From a bacterium (GTDB lineage Bacteria; Cyanobacteriota; Vampirovibrionia; Gastranaerophilales; Gastranaerophilaceae): 64,000 nucleotides of DNA. Every line of letters begins with the position of its first letter. Within the stretch, counting starts at the first letter, position 1. Of this stretch, positions 26,778 to 33,889 are shown piece after piece. The notes under the pieces were generated by a model. That model was not told the DNA's origin. It ran no database searches and worked only from the letters and a program-made list of their open reading frames with translations. The translations under genes were made by a program, and so were the position numbers. The stretch lies in assembly GCA_017396695.1 (NCBI GenBank), contig JAFQLC010000025.1:1-64000 (forward strand), written 5' to 3'.

Positions 26778-29700
26778 ATGAAAATTAACCCAATTGGTAT
26801 GAGTGTAATTCCCCAAACAAAAACTAGCGGGAAAATTGTTGAAAATAAAGTTGAAAATCCAATCTCATCAAATAGTTTAGTTTTACCGAATGATTACACA
26901 AAACTTGCATTCACGGCAAATAAAATGGATCATGCTGGTCTAAAACAAATTAGAGATATGAAAGATAATTTTACACCAGAGGCAGAAGACATCTACACTG
27001 CGACCCAAGATTTTGCAAAAAGCATCGGCGCAAAAGAAATGGAAACTTGGCATTTTTACTATAATTCACTTCTATTTTTAAAAGAGTATATCCAAGAACT
27101 TGACGAAGGAAGAGCAAACCACGATGAAGAAACTCGTCTTAAAATGCCATTTGAATTAGAAAACATGATTGCAGTTAATTGCACTGCCCTATCAAATGAA
27201 AAATCAAGAGCAAAAATTGCCGAAGTTCTTGATGAGCACATTGAAATAGTTCAAAGAGATTTTATTGCAGAAGAAATTAATAAACCTCAATCAAAAATCA
27301 AAATGCCATCATTATCAAAACCACAACTTTCAATGGATTGTGCAAATGATTTGGTTGAAACTTATGACTTAGTTGCAAACGAAATGGATTCAAATAACTA
27401 TTTTGATGCATATTTCCTTACAACTGCTTACCACACAAAAGATAAAAAATTAACAAAAGAAGCAAGAAATTTGGTTTATGACCTTCAACATGCTTTGATG
27501 GTTGATGATATCGATAAGAAAAAGAAAAACCACTTGCGTTTTTATGATGAAAAAGCAGATGTTATTTGGAAAAATTTAAGTCTCAGAAACGATGCAATTT
27601 GTTTGTATCCAACAGATGACATTGAATCTTCTCAATATTTGATTTCAAGCTTTATAAATTTAGTTAATAAACCAAATCAAACATATAAAGGAATCGACCC
27701 AGAAAATACAAACATTGAGCTTTTAAACAAACATGCAACTTTTGAATATTTGAATAAAGCTGTAAAAAAAGCAAAATACGACCCTGAATATAAAGGCAAA
27801 ACAACAGTTTTCATTGTAAATACACTTGATTTATTCAGAAAAACTGGAGGTCAATTAACTGAAGCTGACCTTGTAACGCTCAAAAATGAACTAACAAATA
27901 AAGAAGGCGACGATAGAAATGTTAGACTTGTGCTTACAATGACGCCTGAGTCTTATTATGCAAACACTCAAAAAGGCGCAAGCCTCACAAACATTTTCTC
28001 TAAATATGCGGTTCAAACTCTGCCTTCTTTGAATGCTTCAGATGCCATTGCGTTTTTAACAGATGAAAACGGTATCAAATTTGTTCAAAATGAAACGAAA
28101 GGTGATTTTTCAAAAGAAGCAATAACAAAGGCAATCGAGCTTACAGCGCAAGATGAAGGAAATTATCCAGATAAAGCTTTGAATTTACTCTCTGGCGTTA
28201 AAAAATATTACGTTGATAAAGATGAAATAACAACAAAAGATATTGAGACATTTGCAGCTGAAACTAAAAAATTAAGCGAAACTTCAAATGCAAACAATGG
28301 CATAAATGTTGTTTATGACACAGGGAAAAGATTAAATGACATTGTTGGAAGCCCAATGACAAGAGCGGATGCCGAAGCAATTGTTAATCAAATTAAAACA
28401 AGAACAATTGGCACAAAAGGTATTAGTGCTTACTTAGATAATGGCACATCATATGGCGGCGGAAGAAAACACACTGCTGAGGCTATTGCTGGTGAAGCTG
28501 GTATTCCAATGATTACAATTAACGCTCAAGATTTTGCGCTCAAAGATATCGATATGTTATCTCAAAATGCTGATTTATCTGAGATGAAAATTAGAAAAAT
28601 TGTCTCTCTTGCAAAAGCACAAGCGGAAGCAAACCCTAATAAAACGGCAATGATATTTATTGAAAACTTTGATAATTTTGCAGCAAACCCACTTTATGGC
28701 GTTTCTTCAATTTATGAACAAAAAGCATTCTCGCAATTACTTGCTGAGATGGAAAACGCAAGAAAAAATGATGATGTGAATTTAGTTGTGGTGGGCTCTG
28801 TTAATATGCCTGAAGTAATTGATATGAACATAATGAAGCCATACAAATTCCTTGATTCAATTATTGTGTTCCCACCTCAAGACACAAATGAAAGACAAGA
28901 AGTTCTTAATTATTACGTAAATAAGTTGAATCTTGATATTGCAGGCGAAACAGTTGAAGAAAAACAAAAAGTTATAAGAGATTTGGCTGAAACAACAAAG
29001 GGCTTTACAGTTGTTGATTTGATTTACTTGCTTGAAACTTCAAAAAGCGTTGTGGCTGAAAGAGGAAAAGATAAAATTGGCTCGGCTGATTTTGTTGAAG
29101 CATATTTAAGAACAACATCTGGAAGACCAAACAAAGCTCATATTCCTGAAGCAAGAAAGAAAATTGTAACATCGCATGAGGCAGGACACGCACTCACTTT
29201 GCAATTAATGTATGAAATTGCTGAAAAACAAGGCATTGCTTGGCACTTGCCGGACATGGTGAACTTTATAACACTTGACCCAAGAGCAAATTATGGCGGT
29301 GCGATGTATTATAAAGATTCAGATAACCAAGAACTTTGTTTTGAAAGTATGATTGCGGATATGATTTGCTCATACGGCGGTCATTCATCTGAAAAAGTGC
29401 TCTATAATATGTCTGGTTCATACGGCATCACAGGCGATATGCAACAAGCTGAATCCATTGCAAGACTTGCTGTTTTAGATATGGGTATGGGGCCAAAAAC
29501 TGGGGTTAGACACGTAAGACGCAACGCACTTGGTGCACCTGATGTTTCAAATGAAAAAATGGCTGATATAGAAAAAGATATGGATGCTTTCCACAAAGGC
29601 GCAAAAGGTATTTCAGATTCAATTATCGAAGAATACAAAGGCTTTATTGAAGAATTTACTGAAAAACACTTTGCAAAAGTGGGCACAGGTGAATGCCTTG

Positions 29701-29843
29701 TTTCATCAAAAGAATTTATTGATGAATTAAATGCTTGGAGACAGGCTCAACCTGAAGAAAAACAAAAATCAATGAAAGAACTCGAAAAACAAATTTTAGA
29801 TGACATTGATAAATTAAAAACAGGTGATTATATTAAAAATTAA
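26778..29843 (+). CDS. FtsH-like soluble metalloprotease (peptidase M41) with degenerate AAA modules
   Basis: A 1021-aa protein with no membrane helix. The C-terminal third is a peptidase M41 domain: zinc motif HEAGH (residues 800-804), then YGGHSSEKVLYNMSGSYGITGDMQQAESIARL, equivalent to the FtsH GGRAAEE..G..TTGASNDL region with the third zinc ligand Asp. Before it lies an AAA-like module in which Walker A is ruined: GISAYLDNGTSYGGGRKHTA (548-567) replaces GxxGTGKT, and IFIENFDNF stands for Walker B. An earlier region (about 330-470) looks like another decayed AAA-type unit. The FtsH membrane anchor is absent, and the N-terminus has a leader ending KLAFTANK. Proteolysis is predicted; ATP hydrolysis is not. 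It is monocistronic, with a terminator at 29869. Confidence 0.78.
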   Translation: MKINPIGMSVIPQTKTSGKIVENKVENPISSNSLVLPNDYTKLAFTANKMDHAGLKQIRDMKDNFTPEAEDIYTATQDFAKSIGAKEMETWHFYYNSLLFLKEYIQELDEGRANHDEETRLKMPFELENMIAVNCTALSNEKSRAKIAEVLDEHIEIVQRDFIAEEINKPQSKIKMPSLSKPQLSMDCANDLVETYDLVANEMDSNNYFDAYFLTTAYHTKDKKLTKEARNLVYDLQHALMVDDIDKKKKNHLRFYDEKADVIWKNLSLRNDAICLYPTDDIESSQYLISSFINLVNKPNQTYKGIDPENTNIELLNKHATFEYLNKAVKKAKYDPEYKGKTTVFIVNTLDLFRKTGGQLTEADLVTLKNELTNKEGDDRNVRLVLTMTPESYYANTQKGASLTNIFSKYAVQTLPSLNASDAIAFLTDENGIKFVQNETKGDFSKEAITKAIELTAQDEGNYPDKALNLLSGVKKYYVDKDEITTKDIETFAAETKKLSETSNANNGINVVYDTGKRLNDIVGSPMTRADAEAIVNQIKTRTIGTKGISAYLDNGTSYGGGRKHTAEAIAGEAGIPMITINAQDFALKDIDMLSQNADLSEMKIRKIVSLAKAQAEANPNKTAMIFIENFDNFAANPLYGVSSIYEQKAFSQLLAEMENARKNDDVNLVVVGSVNMPEVIDMNIMKPYKFLDSIIVFPPQDTNERQEVLNYYVNKLNLDIAGETVEEKQKVIRDLAETTKGFTVVDLIYLLETSKSVVAERGKDKIGSADFVEAYLRTTSGRPNKAHIPEARKKIVTSHEAGHALTLQLMYEIAEKQGIAWHLPDMVNFITLDPRANYGGAMYYKDSDNQELCFESMIADMICSYGGHSSEKVLYNMSGSYGITGDMQQAESIARLAVLDMGMGPKTGVRHVRRNALGAPDVSNEKMADIEKDMDAFHKGAKGISDSIIEEYKGFIEEFTEKHFAKVGTGECLVSSKEFIDELNAWRQAQPEEKQKSMKELEKQILDDIDKLKTGDYIKN

Positions 29844-29984: not shown

Positions 29985-30818
29985 TTAGCCCCAAATTTCA
30001 AAATTTGGTTCTTCTGCACTCATGCAATGCACTCCGCCCGCGCCTTCAATCAAATTATCCATTACTTCGTTACTTTCTCCGTAATTTTCGCCCTCTATAA
30101 AATACACGTCTTTTAAAATAGGTGCATTTTCATCTATTTTCCTTAACTCTTCAAGCTTACTTCTTAAATCTTTTTCAAACATTCTTTGATATTTTGAAAC
30201 ATTTGGCAAATTGCATTTTGAAGAATTGGTGATGTATGAAATAGAGCCGTCTTCATGCTTGTTTACAATGGCGTTCATAAAATTAACACTTGCATTTTTT
30301 GTATCATATACAGCCCCAATTGGTATTGGAATAAAGCCATTTTCTTTTAATTGTTCAATACTTTTTCTATATGCAAGCATTTTGAAATTATTTTTATCCA
30401 ACGTTGGTTTGGATTTTGTTTTTACACCTTTTGCCTTAAATTCATTTTTTAGTGACATTTCAGGGTTATTCACCAAAACATAAGGATAGCCGATTGGTCT
30501 TATTGATAAATCTAAGTGATAATCTTGTTGACTTATGTAATGTATGTTTTCGGGCCTAACTTCGTAGCGTTTTGAAATTCCATCTTTGCTTGTTGATATT
30601 TGTTCATTTGCGCCAACGAGCATAAATTTTTCGCCGTCCGGTTTTTTGCCTATGAAAAAATTCCCGCCGGAGATATAACTTGACGATTTATCAAACAAAG
30701 GCACAAGTTCTACTGGCATTTTATAATGTTCTTCCATCTCACCAAGATATGGTTTTAAAAGCTCCACATTTTCTTGAATTAAAACGTATGGCTTTTTCTC
30801 TTTTTCAAGGACAAGCAT
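29985..30818 (-). CDS. probable pentein-fold (guanidino-group modifying) hydrolase
   Basis: The 277-aa frame contains a set of motifs in the order found in agmatine deiminase, arginine deiminase and relatives: GGNFF (51-53 for GGN), HLD (101-103, the HxD pair), and a C-terminal GAGGVHCMS with the nucleophile candidate C265. These enzymes attack guanidinium carbons through a covalent Cys adduct. An expected first aspartate lies just upstream of the nominal ATG (NQD). The family assignment is inference from motifs; overall similarity is low. Substrate could be free or protein-bound arginine. The nominal start is internal: coding sequence clearly continues 5' to 31007 (separate entry). There is no signal peptide. 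Confidence 0.6.
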   Translation of the reverse strand: MLVLEKEKKPYVLIQENVELLKPYLGEMEEHYKMPVELVPLFDKSSSYISGGNFFIGKKPDGEKFMLVGANEQISTSKDGISKRYEVRPENIHYISQQDYHLDLSIRPIGYPYVLVNNPEMSLKNEFKAKGVKTKSKPTLDKNNFKMLAYRKSIEQLKENGFIPIPIGAVYDTKNASVNFMNAIVNKHEDGSISYITNSSKCNLPNVSKYQRMFEKDLRSKLEELRKIDENAPILKDVYFIEGENYGESNEVMDNLIEGAGGVHCMSAEEPNFEIWG

Positions 30819-31007
30819 TAAATCTTGGTTGTATGAGCCATTGAATTTATATGGTTTGCATTCTATATTTTCATTTTTGCAAATTTCTTGAAATTCGTCT
30901 CCGATTTTATCCCAGCCTGCTGAAATGTGTAAAGCCTTAAGCGGAGCTGCGTCATAGCCTTTGAAGCTTATTAGGGGTTTAGTGACTGATGAGATTTTCG
31001 TAGTCTT
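30819..31007 (-). pseudogene. in-frame 5' extension of the pentein-like gene lacking a start codon
   Basis: The frame stays open for 63 codons above the ATG at 30818 and reads like real protein, including PLISFKGYDAAPLKALHISA and GSYNQDL. It contains the SFKG leader motif seen in other proteins here. A TAA immediately precedes AAG at 31005-31007, and no ATG, GTG or TTG occurs. Either the start was mutated, or a non-standard start such as ATC or ATA is used. Confidence 0.55.
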
Positions 31008-31093
31008 TTAAAAACTATGAAATAATTTTTTTGCTATTTTTAATTTTGTAAAAGTTTTATTGGGTTCTTTAATAAAAATTTCGGCAAATTATC

Positions 31094-31978
31094 TTAAAAA
31101 CTCAAGTCTTGCTTTAATAAATTGGTCAGTATTTCCGTGTTTTGCGTATATTGTGCGTAATTGTTAAGACGTTCAAATATAAATAAAACGTCCTTGATTG
31201 GAAAACCGCTATGTATTAGGTTAGAAAGAATAATTGTTAAATCGATTGCTGATATAAAATGCGGAACTAAATCGTTCACCAATGTTGGGTCTTGCGATTT
31301 TACAAGCTCCATTAATTTTAATGTGTCAGTTTTTGAAAAAACTTGTTTTGAATATTTAATACATACTTCTCCAAGGTTTTCGATAATTTTATCTGAATTA
31401 TTGTTTTTTAATTCTTCTTTCGTTAATTTGCCCGTGAAAACCTTCTTGTTTCTCACATGTATTTGATACTCGTATTCGGGCAGTTTTTCGTAATCAAGGA
31501 TTCTTACATTTGGGATTATATAGCCCAGCTCATCGGTCAAATATTCTCTTAAGGAAGCTACATTTGGGATTAGCGAACCATTTGATGTTGGGTCTGCTAT
31601 GCTTATGATGTTTTCGCTTATAAATATTGCCAATACATCCACACCTAAGCGCTCGTACATATTTGATGGATTTTGTAAATTACTTAATTCTTTTTCTTTG
31701 TTTGATTTTCTCTTTTGATTAATTTCATTTTTTTCATTAGAAATATCGTTAATTTCGCTTTGCAGAGATTTTATTTTATCTACAACAGACATTCTGGGCT
31801 CGTAATTTGAGATAATTTTGCGGGCTATATTATTGTTTTTGATTTTGTAATAATTGCCGAAAAATGCACTTAAAAAAAACATTTTGATGTTATTGATTGT
31901 AGAATGTTTGTGGTTTTTTGCAGATTTAATTTTAGCATATTTTTCTCTTACTTTTCTGTCGATCTCATTGTTGTGCAT
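31094..31978 (-). CDS. stand-alone FlhA-type C-terminal domain protein
   Basis: Residues 110-294 match the cytoplasmic domain of the flagellar export gate protein FlhA: RLGVDVLAIFISENIISIAD, then LREYLTDELGYIIPNVRILD, VRNKKVFTGKLTKEE, and the late TLKLMELVKSQDPTLVNDLVP and LSNLIHSGFPIKDVLFIFERL. In FlhA this domain forms a nine-subunit ring that docks FliI, FliJ and chaperone-substrate complexes. Here the eight membrane helices are missing, the adaptor subdomain is shortened, and the first 110 residues are a charged coiled-coil-like region. It is isolated from other flagellar genes. A diverged soluble paralogue acting on export or as an unrelated adaptor is likely. Type III secretion SctV is an alternative source. 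Confidence 0.72.
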   Translation of the reverse strand: MHNNEIDRKVREKYAKIKSAKNHKHSTINNIKMFFLSAFFGNYYKIKNNNIARKIISNYEPRMSVVDKIKSLQSEINDISNEKNEINQKRKSNKEKELSNLQNPSNMYERLGVDVLAIFISENIISIADPTSNGSLIPNVASLREYLTDELGYIIPNVRILDYEKLPEYEYQIHVRNKKVFTGKLTKEELKNNNSDKIIENLGEVCIKYSKQVFSKTDTLKLMELVKSQDPTLVNDLVPHFISAIDLTIILSNLIHSGFPIKDVLFIFERLNNYAQYTQNTEILTNLLKQDLSF

Positions 31979-32089
31979 AAATCGTGCTCCAAAAATTAAT
32001 AACTTATTTTCTAATATAATGATATTTTTCTAATATGCAAGTATTTGCCGTGTTTATAAAAATTAATTTTGGCATTAAAAAATAGTGCA

Positions 32090-32375
32090 CGTTGCTTCAG
32101 TTGTTGGCGAACCAGTGAGCCTTACAAATGAAGTATGCGCAGATTGCGTATGAAAATCGGAGCGTTTGTGACTGATTTTCAAGCAAACCAGCTGTGATGT
32201 AATCTCTGTAGAGCAAGTAGCAACCCCTTTTGCTATGAAACTGTTTGAAACTATTTATCAAACTGCAAGCGTAGTTGTAAGATGTTATAACCTGACGGAT
32301 AAATTTAAAATAGGGAATGTCGGTATAATTTAGGTGGTGTTTGAATTTAAGGCAATTCCCTCGTTTCAAGAAAAA
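32090..32375. other. gene-free, hairpin-rich region, possible structured RNA or mobile-element remnant
   Basis: No convincing gene: the one 90-codon frame here has no ribosome site or protein-like composition. Several helices are visible: TGAAAATC/GATTTTCA (32151-32158 with 32174-32181), TAGCAA/TTGCTA (32218-32235), GTTTGA/TCAAAC nearby, and AGGGAAT/ATTCCCT (32312-32318 with 32355-32361) enclosing the end. GC content is higher than the flanks. A large non-coding RNA or the non-coding end of a decayed IS200/IS605-type element are both possible. Neither is demonstrated. Confidence 0.35.
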
Positions 32376-32551
32376 TTATCCTTTTTATCCTTGATTGGTT
32401 GTCGGCGTTAAACGAGCACGCTATCGCTTCAGCCCTCTGCCGACAATCCGCTTTCTTATCCTTAAAATTATCCTTTTTTCCAGTTGGTTTGTGAAAATTT
32501 GCCTCAAACTTAGACAGGGTTTGACTTTTAGCAAGTATATAAAAAGGATAA
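32376..32551. repeat. 176-bp element bounded by 13-bp inverted repeats
   Basis: TTATCCTTTTTAT at 32376-32388 is the exact complement of ATAAAAAGGATAA at 32539-32551. Inside lies a second palindrome, TTGTCGGC (32399-32406) with GCCGACAA (32439-32446), around GC-richer sequence. No reading frame of note is present. It resembles a small non-autonomous element, but target-site duplications were not found. Confidence 0.4.
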
Positions 32552-32613
32552 AAACTTCCGAGTGGTGGGAAAATATTGTCTGATTGGTCAAGTAACGTTA
32601 TATGATTATTTTC

Positions 32614-32631
32614 GGTGCAAAAAATTGCACC
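32614..32631 (-). terminator. short hairpin after the gene at 32647
   Basis: GGTGCAA, four A residues, then TTGCACC form a perfect 7-bp hairpin just beyond the stop of the minus-strand gene. On the minus strand it is not followed by a long T-run, so it may be a dispersed palindrome rather than a terminator. Confidence 0.35.
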
Positions 32632-32646
32632 CTACAGACTATAAAT

Positions 32647-33198
32647 TCATAAATTAAAAGTTCTTTCAATATAATCAATCGTAAAGTCTAACTTTCCAAT
32701 CATATCGTAATAACCTAATCGCCTATCAATCGAATTATAAACATCTGTTGCATATTCTTTAATTCGAAGAATTTCTCCTTCTTTGTATAATTCTTCATAA
32801 AAAATTTTATAATTTTCATATTTAGAAAATTTATATAAATACGTAGCATATAACCACTGCTCATCTAATGGTAATTTATAATGTACATTGTTATATTCGG
32901 AGTATATTAATTTCATTTCACCCGAACTAGAAAGAATACTCCTAAGATATTTTAATCTATCAAGAGTTTCCTCTATATACTCTATAAAATTACTATATGT
33001 CTTTTTATTATTTGTTGTACAAATTATTTTAGAACTATTTTTATAATCAATAATATATCCTACAATTATTGGTAATAAAAATGCAATTACTACAGTTAAC
33101 CAACTTCCTGAAACATATCCTGGATCGTTTAAATTTGTAGAATATACGGGCTTACTAGATACTAAAAGAATAAGTAATATTGTAATAAATCTATTCAT
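32647..33198 (-). CDS. hypothetical membrane-anchored protein
   Basis: From the ATG at 33198 the protein (183 aa) starts MNRFITILLILLVSSKPVYS, a convincing signal peptide. A start eight codons further upstream would bury it, so it is not preferred; neither start has a clear ribosome site. A second hydrophobic segment (WLTVVIAFLLPIIVGYII) gives one membrane span. The remainder is Tyr/Lys/Glu-rich and helical (FIEYIEETLDRLKYLRSIL). It is extremely AT-rich and lies in the accessory region. I recognise no family. Confidence 0.55.
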   Translation of the reverse strand: MNRFITILLILLVSSKPVYSTNLNDPGYVSGSWLTVVIAFLLPIIVGYIIDYKNSSKIICTTNNKKTYSNFIEYIEETLDRLKYLRSILSSSGEMKLIYSEYNNVHYKLPLDEQWLYATYLYKFSKYENYKIFYEELYKEGEILRIKEYATDVYNSIDRRLGYYDMIGKLDFTIDYIERTFNL

Positions 33199-33222
33199 AA
33201 AATTATTATATATAAAAAACAT

Positions 33223-33487
33223 TTCTTACAATAAAATTCGCTCAATATATAAATTATTTTATCAAATTGCTACACAAAAATCCTCAAAATGTTGTAGCTG
33301 GTAGGTTGGGGTTACCCCAACAATTATATTTTTCATTTCATCTGACACTTTTTCTCAAACTGCATGTCAAATTACAAAGGAAAAGCACAAAATTTCTCAT
33401 TCTAACTGATAGTTTTTCTTAAACTGTCAGTCAAATTACAGAGATGTAATCTCACTTATTTGAGTAATGTGTTCAAGCATTAAAAAA
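33223..33487. repeat. intergenic region with two diverged 37-bp direct repeats and a palindrome
   Basis: Copies at 33343-33379 and 33407-33443 agree at most positions (TTTTTCT, AAACTG, GTCAAATTACA are shared in the same spacing). Each contains a hairpin of TGACA/AGTTT type partners. A palindrome GTTGGGGTTACCCCAAC lies at 33305-33321. No gene is visible. The region borders tRNA-Met. Confidence 0.5.
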
Positions 33488-33561
33488 TAGCAAGGGTGAG
33501 ATTCGAACTCACGACCTCGCGGGTATGAGCCGCGCGCTCTCACCAACTGAGCTACCTTGCC
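33488..33561 (-). tRNA. tRNA-Met (anticodon CAT, elongator type)
   Basis: On the minus strand the acceptor stem GGCAAGG pairs with CCTTGCT (one G-U pair at the end). A D arm TAGCTCAGTTGGTGAGAGC, an anticodon stem CGCGG/CCGCG with loop CTCATAC, and GTTCGAATC in the T arm complete a 74-base tRNA with discriminator A. The paired first base pair and lack of three G-C anticodon-stem pairs ending in the initiator pattern favour elongator Met. A lysidine-modified Ile tRNA cannot be fully excluded. CCA is not encoded; T-residues follow. Confidence 0.87.
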
Positions 33562-33889
33562 ATGTTAAAATAAATATTAAATTGTGAATGTTCTTTGGCG
33601 GGTACGGTTTCGGCTCTGCGACAAAGCTCCTCGCTTTCTCGCTCTCGCCTCACACACCTTGGCTCGCTTGTTTTCATTAAGTGCAAGCACTAAATTCAAA
33701 CTTCGCTTCGTGAGCTACCTTGCCATGTTTTAAAAAGATATTAAACTGTAAATTTTGCGCCGTGCGCTTAAAATTTTGAGCAATCTCAAAACCTTACTTA
33801 ACTAGTATCCATCAAAAATAAAAAAATACAAGAATAATTTAAAAATTTTGTTATATAATGTTTTTAAAGGCATTTAAAGGAATTTTTTT
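33562..33889. repeat. region upstream of tRNA-Met with a partial tRNA duplicate
   Basis: Nineteen bases covering the tRNA 5' end and its flank (33548-33566) recur exactly at 33711-33729, and similarity continues into the upstream AT-rich flank (ATATTAAA...TGTAAAT). The 145 bp between the copies is distinctly GC-richer and CTCGC-rich. It looks like a remnant of a second tRNA copy or an insertion into the tRNA 5' end. No gene is visible before prfA. Confidence 0.55.

Follow-up and report, generated by a model that had tools for sequence, protein, structure and literature searches.

The gene at positions 31094-31978 (minus strand) of the window, the 64,000-nt stretch of contig JAFQLC010000025.1 analyzed here, encodes a free-standing protein of 294 aa that retains the linker and subdomains D1 and D3 of the cytoplasmic ring of FlhA, and has neither the transmembrane helices nor subdomains D2 and D4. 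The protein is a FHIPEP/FlhA homologue and not a full export-gate FlhA equivalog. The gene and its parts are as follows.

31094-31978, minus strand: free-standing FlhA ring-core protein, 294 aa, start codon ATG
31987-31990, minus strand: GGAG Shine-Dalgarno-like motif, 8 nt upstream of the ATG, read directly in the sequence
31697-31978, minus strand: residues 1-94, replaced N-terminus with a conserved start motif followed by a coiled-coil-like helix
31424-31696, minus strand: residues 95-185, end of the linker and first part of D1 (phmmer, alignment, and VIA-align)
31394-31423, minus strand: residues 186-195, site of the absent D2, which has ~46 residues in FlhA-2 (alignment)
31355-31393, minus strand: residues 196-208, second part of D1, a helix (alignment)
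31097-31354, minus strand: residues 209-294, D3 (phmmer and alignment), with the stop at the D3/D4 boundary

The protein matched PF00771 (FHIPEP) above the curated cut-off (E = 2.8e-28, 99.2 bits, cut-off 29.1), and TIGR01398 (FlhA; E = 8e-26) fitted it clearly better than TIGR01399 (SctV; E = 1.6e-10), with a TIGR01398 score of 90.5 that lies below the FlhA equivalog level (cut-off 772). In phmmer it aligned with the cytoplasmic domain of Bacillus subtilis FlhA (3mix; 4.6e-18) in two blocks corresponding to D1 (query 81-188, paired with 3mix 16-121) and D3 (query 204-292, paired with 3mix 180-268; domain i-Evalue 5.5e-6). Both AlphaFold2 models, full-length (pLDDT 60) and core (pLDDT 69.5), are reliable only in D1; D3 is modeled as helical and weakly (pLDDT about 55-65), and its homology is established by sequence. 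With the AlphaFold model, every Foldseek hit below E 1e-3 was a cytoplasmic domain of FlhA or SctV, and VIA-align gave only FlhA/SctV matches above Z 7, the D1 of 3mix being superposed at Z = 16.4 (98 residues, rmsd 1.4 Å) with the target's D2 residues skipped.

A preliminary description, made from the sequence alone, had recognized a detached FlhA cytoplasmic domain without membrane helices and had called for a search with FlhA and SctV profiles; the profile values above and the good PDB fold matches, all to FlhA/SctV, bear it out, and no membrane helix was found in the protein, whose sole hydropathy peak sits within D3. It had also confined the FlhA-like part to the C-terminal 185 residues, which is right as to homology and too short as to extent, the similarity starting near residue 95 and covering ~200 residues up to residue 294. 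Its "shortened adaptor subdomain" has to be corrected: in the alignment with full-length relatives D1 is intact, the ~46 residues of D2 that are normally inserted in D1 are gone altogether, and D4 is missing too, the C-terminus coinciding with the point where D4 would begin. Judged from this alignment, the chaperone sites (the D1/D2 dimple and the D2-D4 cleft) and the FliJ site (the D4-D4 cleft) are missing from the protein.

The first ~94 residues have no Pfam match. They open with an EID-K--EKY-like motif common to homologues in two other genera, which the first 20 residues resemble as a whole (EIDRKVREKYAKI / DEIDKKLVNKYKDI / YLDKLLVEKYQDM). The coiled-coil character previously ascribed to the new N-terminus fits a stretch at about residues 65-102 that is helical in the AlphaFold model and has a heptad pattern read by eye.

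A frameshifted or decayed flhA was rejected. The earlier suggestion that a frameshift might restore upstream transmembrane helices fails because tblastn, covering all frames, detected neither FlhA transmembrane helices nor D4 in the flanks; the eight transmembrane helices and the TM4-TM5 loop of full FlhA are absent from the ORF and its flanks. Within the window no exact consensus of a flagellar sigma-28-type promoter was found, and sigma-70-like sites were not above chance. Three other origins were rejected: a defense system (PADLOC recognized neither the protein nor its neighbors in the window), a phage (viral contigs carry no homologue, and two unannotated phage-collection records match the protein in the way ordinary FlhA does), and a plasmid (the plasmid matches are ordinary flhA or unannotated).

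The host is a Candidatus Gastranaerophilales (gut "Melainabacteria") MAG of ~1.36 Mb, 80% complete and in 28 contigs. The separate full-length flhA for which the preliminary description had advised a search is present twice, together with two flhB and two fliP. FlhA-1 is canonical, in the order fliR-flhB-flhA on contig C15; FlhA-2 is cut by the end of contig C1 and has ~700 aa in relatives. By sequence inspection, the second flhB adjoins motAB-like genes and the second fliP precedes fliQ. This small gut genome thus has two full flagellar-type gate sets (G000 contigs C15, C1, C13, and C17; loci L036, L037, L082, and L083). A related melainabacterium, ACD20, has already been listed with two flhA genes, one beside fliH and fliI (PMC3787301), and in genome G045 (L012) the FlhA-2 and FlhA-1 genes lie tail to tail. 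Next to flhA-2 in the host is a gene for a 1641-aa flagellin (L036:7909-12831, plus strand, on G000:C1) with flagellin N- and C-terminal ends and a long middle with weak RTX-like repeat matches.

A third FlhA-type protein of the host is likewise free-standing and contains D1-D4:

L038:9898-11352 (G000:C25), minus strand: 484-aa FlhA_C paralogue, between accA and mur genes

Its homologues (e.g., L042:8936-10402 and L043:8755-10212) have 484-505 aa and all four subdomains, and at least 31 of the 59 relatives carry similar frames of 473-545 aa. Its N-terminus (~60 aa, EGWEL) is weakly DUF4177-like (E about 0.1, below the cut-off). This order-wide paralogue is arguably no less unusual than the window protein.

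Proteins of the window kind belong to a patchily distributed D2-less family. A profile of D2-less cores detected at least 41 loci, spread over 40 of the 383 genomes surveyed from this order, a lower bound that counts only rows scoring above all full-length FlhAs. They range from 210 to 612 aa and have varied N-termini:

Window type, ~265-300 aa: seven genomes (the host, G025, G073, G099, G157, G172, and G327), with a soluble N-terminus of 80-100 aa
~335-aa type, with two membrane helices: G048
~240-255-aa type: G026, whose N-termini, like those of G048, have one or two membrane helices
~210-220-aa type: D1-D3 only, with almost no N-terminus in the ~212-aa form
~575-612-aa type: 11 genomes; D4 is still present, the N-domain has ~200 aa, and most members have two membrane helices

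G026 has three D2-less ring-core copies (L044:7537-8184, L044:9304-10020, and G026:C34:3004-3606); two of them lie within 3 kb of each other, and one, of 215 aa, was recognized by Pfam. The window-type proteins from the four genera g1, g8, g25, and g55 have a common C-terminal end at the D3/D4 boundary and carry YTQ[ND] in place of the FSKEP of FlhA-2. A different order of the class, represented by 53 genomes, yielded no homologue except a marginal partial match (E = 9e-4).

In the maximum-likelihood tree all D2-less proteins form one clade beside FlhA-2 (SH-aLRT 95.8 / UFBoot 88); because the tree has long branches, this monophyly rests partly on the shared loss of D2, and the long-branched 484-aa paralogue falls, weakly placed, in the same clade. 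Sister to the window protein are the homologues of genus g8 (78.5/88). The window protein descends from FlhA-2, its closest full-length relative, with which it has the motifs YERLGVD, DELGYIIPN, and LKLMELVKSQDPTLVNDLVP in common. The D2-less relatives are under purifying selection (dN/dS 0.08-0.09 at dS 0.14-0.16 among the g8 homologues; 0.07-0.21 for members of the ~590-aa type).

The gene occupies a variable locus bounded on one side by a tRNA gene:

30972-33478: segment that the sister species G001, of the same genus, lacks; it contains the ring-core gene and an orphan 191-aa ORF
33487-33562, minus strand: tRNA-Met, the 3' end of which borders the segment

In G001 the flanking 277-aa gene and tRNA-Met are the same, with ~1.96 kb of unrelated sequence taking the place of the segment, and in G025 the orthologous tRNA-Met (L039:11297-11372) is 1.9 kb from an FlhA-core homologue. 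Given the absence at the syntenic spot in G001 and the selection in relatives, the ring-core gene is accessory, selected where present and dispensable in most species. The orphan ORF (32647-33222, minus strand) encodes N-terminal hydrophobic stretches and has no homologue in 58 relatives. The 277-aa protein (29985-30818, minus strand) has no Pfam match above cut-off and belongs to a lineage-specific multicopy family with several copies in G001. An FtsH-like protein of 1021 aa is encoded at 26778-29843 (plus strand); its AAA and M41 peptidase domains match weakly, and its N-terminal half (~500 aa) has no Pfam match.

What the protein may do can be approached through the contacts of the nonameric FlhA/SctV ring, which is held by SD1-SD3 and SD3-SD3 contacts and by a linker lying on the neighbor's D1/D3 (PMC7584215, PMC8223533, PMC9629515, PMC8166844). 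Chaperone-cargo docks at the D1-D2 cleft (PMC5932034), and FliJ/SctO binds the cleft between neighboring SD4s (PMC7584215). Because only linker, D1, and D3 remain, the window protein has kept the ring-building parts and dropped the docking parts. It retains 30 of 50 conserved FlhA-2-specific positions in D1 and 25 of 35 in the first half of D3, whereas retention at the linker and GxxLL positions of FlhA-2 is only partial. Of the 13 conserved FlhA-2 charges in the second half of D3, which served as the gauge of interface retention, 4 survive; the R of LIRE and the R/K of DLRK are among those lost. The SctV ring is held by SD3 salt bridges, so with so few D3 charges kept the SD3 interface may be remodeled and coassembly with FlhA-2 weakened.

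In view of the FlhA-2-specific residues retained in D1 and in the first half of D3, we favor, with somewhat less than even confidence, the reading that the protein is an FlhA-2 paralogue cut down to its ring core that modulates FlhA-2 ring assembly or export through gate 2. It would stay in the cytoplasm and, through its D1, D3, and linker faces, attach to the cytoplasmic domains of FlhA-2 or to copies of itself; in this way it would join the FlhA-2 ring, cap it, or act as its template. Fewer subunits, or subunits timed in their action, would then be able to dock chaperone-cargo and FliJ, giving an accessory, dose-dependent modulation of export via gate 2. Point mutants of full-length FlhA show negative dominance, and defective subunits can therefore enter the apparatus (PMC3139655). 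Counting against this reading are the charges lost from D3, the lack of any conserved neighbor tying the gene to flagellar genes, its dispensability in most species, and the weak model of D3. A role as regulator of flagellar export, one of the options in the preliminary description, is possible. Extending the idea to the whole D2/D4-less family, as dedicated poison or timer subunits that make hetero-rings with fewer docking sites, seems to us rather unlikely.

A serious competitor, though we put it well short of even, is that the D1-D3 core is a reused scaffold, forming a ring or oligomer of its own that presents varied N-terminal modules for a job outside flagellar export. Across the D2-less family the modules do look exchangeable (a soluble coiled coil, a two-helix membrane anchor, or the ~200-aa N-domain), no conserved gene neighborhood (the tRNA-Met near the G025 homologue excepted) and no flagellar neighbors were found across the window-type members, these proteins share new residues absent from FlhA-2 (YTQ[ND] and the common C-terminal end), and the host's longer FlhA_C paralogue sits among accA and mur genes. 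Against this, the D2-less family occurs only in genomes that also retain FlhA-type gates, and the resemblance to FlhA-2 is still strong in D1 and early D3.

That the gene is a functionless, truncated flhA-2 duplicate drifting to loss is improbable. Its branch is long (about 0.5 substitutions per site), its presence patchy with the gene missing in the sister species, and its ORF AT-richer than the window (30.3 vs. 34.8% GC), but the frame is open and the core motifs are retained despite large divergence, dN/dS is 0.08-0.21 in relatives, the four genera share identical domain boundaries, and the flanks hold no remnant of the lost domains. Still less probable, and the least likely of the functional readings because the docking parts are dropped and the ring-building parts kept, is a decoy or carrier that captures FliJ or complexes of chaperone and substrate at a distance from the gate, as had been proposed for an "export-gate docking domain." The protein is indeed a soluble FlhA_C homologue, the ~590-aa relatives keep D4, and the order-wide 484-aa paralogue keeps D1-D4, but D2 and D4, which make the chaperone and FliJ clefts (PMC5932034, PMC7584215), are absent here. 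A misassembled or misbinned fragment of a full-length gene is scarcely credible: the MAG is incomplete and fragmented and flhA-2 itself is cut by a contig end, but the ring-core gene lies mid-contig (81 kb), adjoins a prfA 98% identical to that of the same-genus genome G001, and has intact D2-less homologues in dozens of other assemblies.

Compared with known FlhA_C (PDB 3A5I, 3MIX, 7AMY; PF00771), the ring-core protein shares the D1 and D3 folds and the linker (E 1e-18 to 1e-28), and differs in being encoded by a separate short gene with a new N-terminus and in lacking the membrane domain, D2, and D4. SctV/HrcV (e.g., CdsV 6WA6, SsaV 7AWA) goes back to the same four-subdomain ancestor, and the window D3 matches TIGR01399; the protein is nonetheless clearly nearer FlhA, and injectisome genes were neither found nor expected. 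FlhA-2 of the Gastranaerophilales differs from it as a ~700-aa membrane protein with D1-D4. The 484-505-aa paralogue is likewise a detached cytoplasmic domain of FlhA, encoded in the same genome, but it keeps D2 and D4, is order-wide and vertically kept, and is 26% identical to the window protein. The closest conceptual precedent is FlhX (FlhB2) of the Campylobacterota, a free-standing paralogue of the FlhB cytoplasmic domain and thus an export-gate cytoplasmic domain encoded separately beside the full-length gene. FlhX derives from FlhB and not FlhA and is not known to form a ring. It is counted among secretion-system proteins (PMC9321776). The FlhB cytoplasmic domain (PF01312) has no match in the window protein and in its genome matches only on C15 and C17.

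The open-access literature searched yielded no description of such free-standing FlhA core proteins. To our knowledge, FlhA/SctV has been treated as one inseparable membrane-plus-ring protein. Ring-only FlhA proteins that lack both docking subdomains would make natural separation-of-function tools: should they assemble into rings or join existing ones, they would provide a direct test of whether D1 and D3 suffice for assembly and of how many docking-competent subunits a gate needs. In this major gut lineage, with two gates per genome, the cytoplasmic half of the export gate appears to have been dismantled and reused repeatedly.
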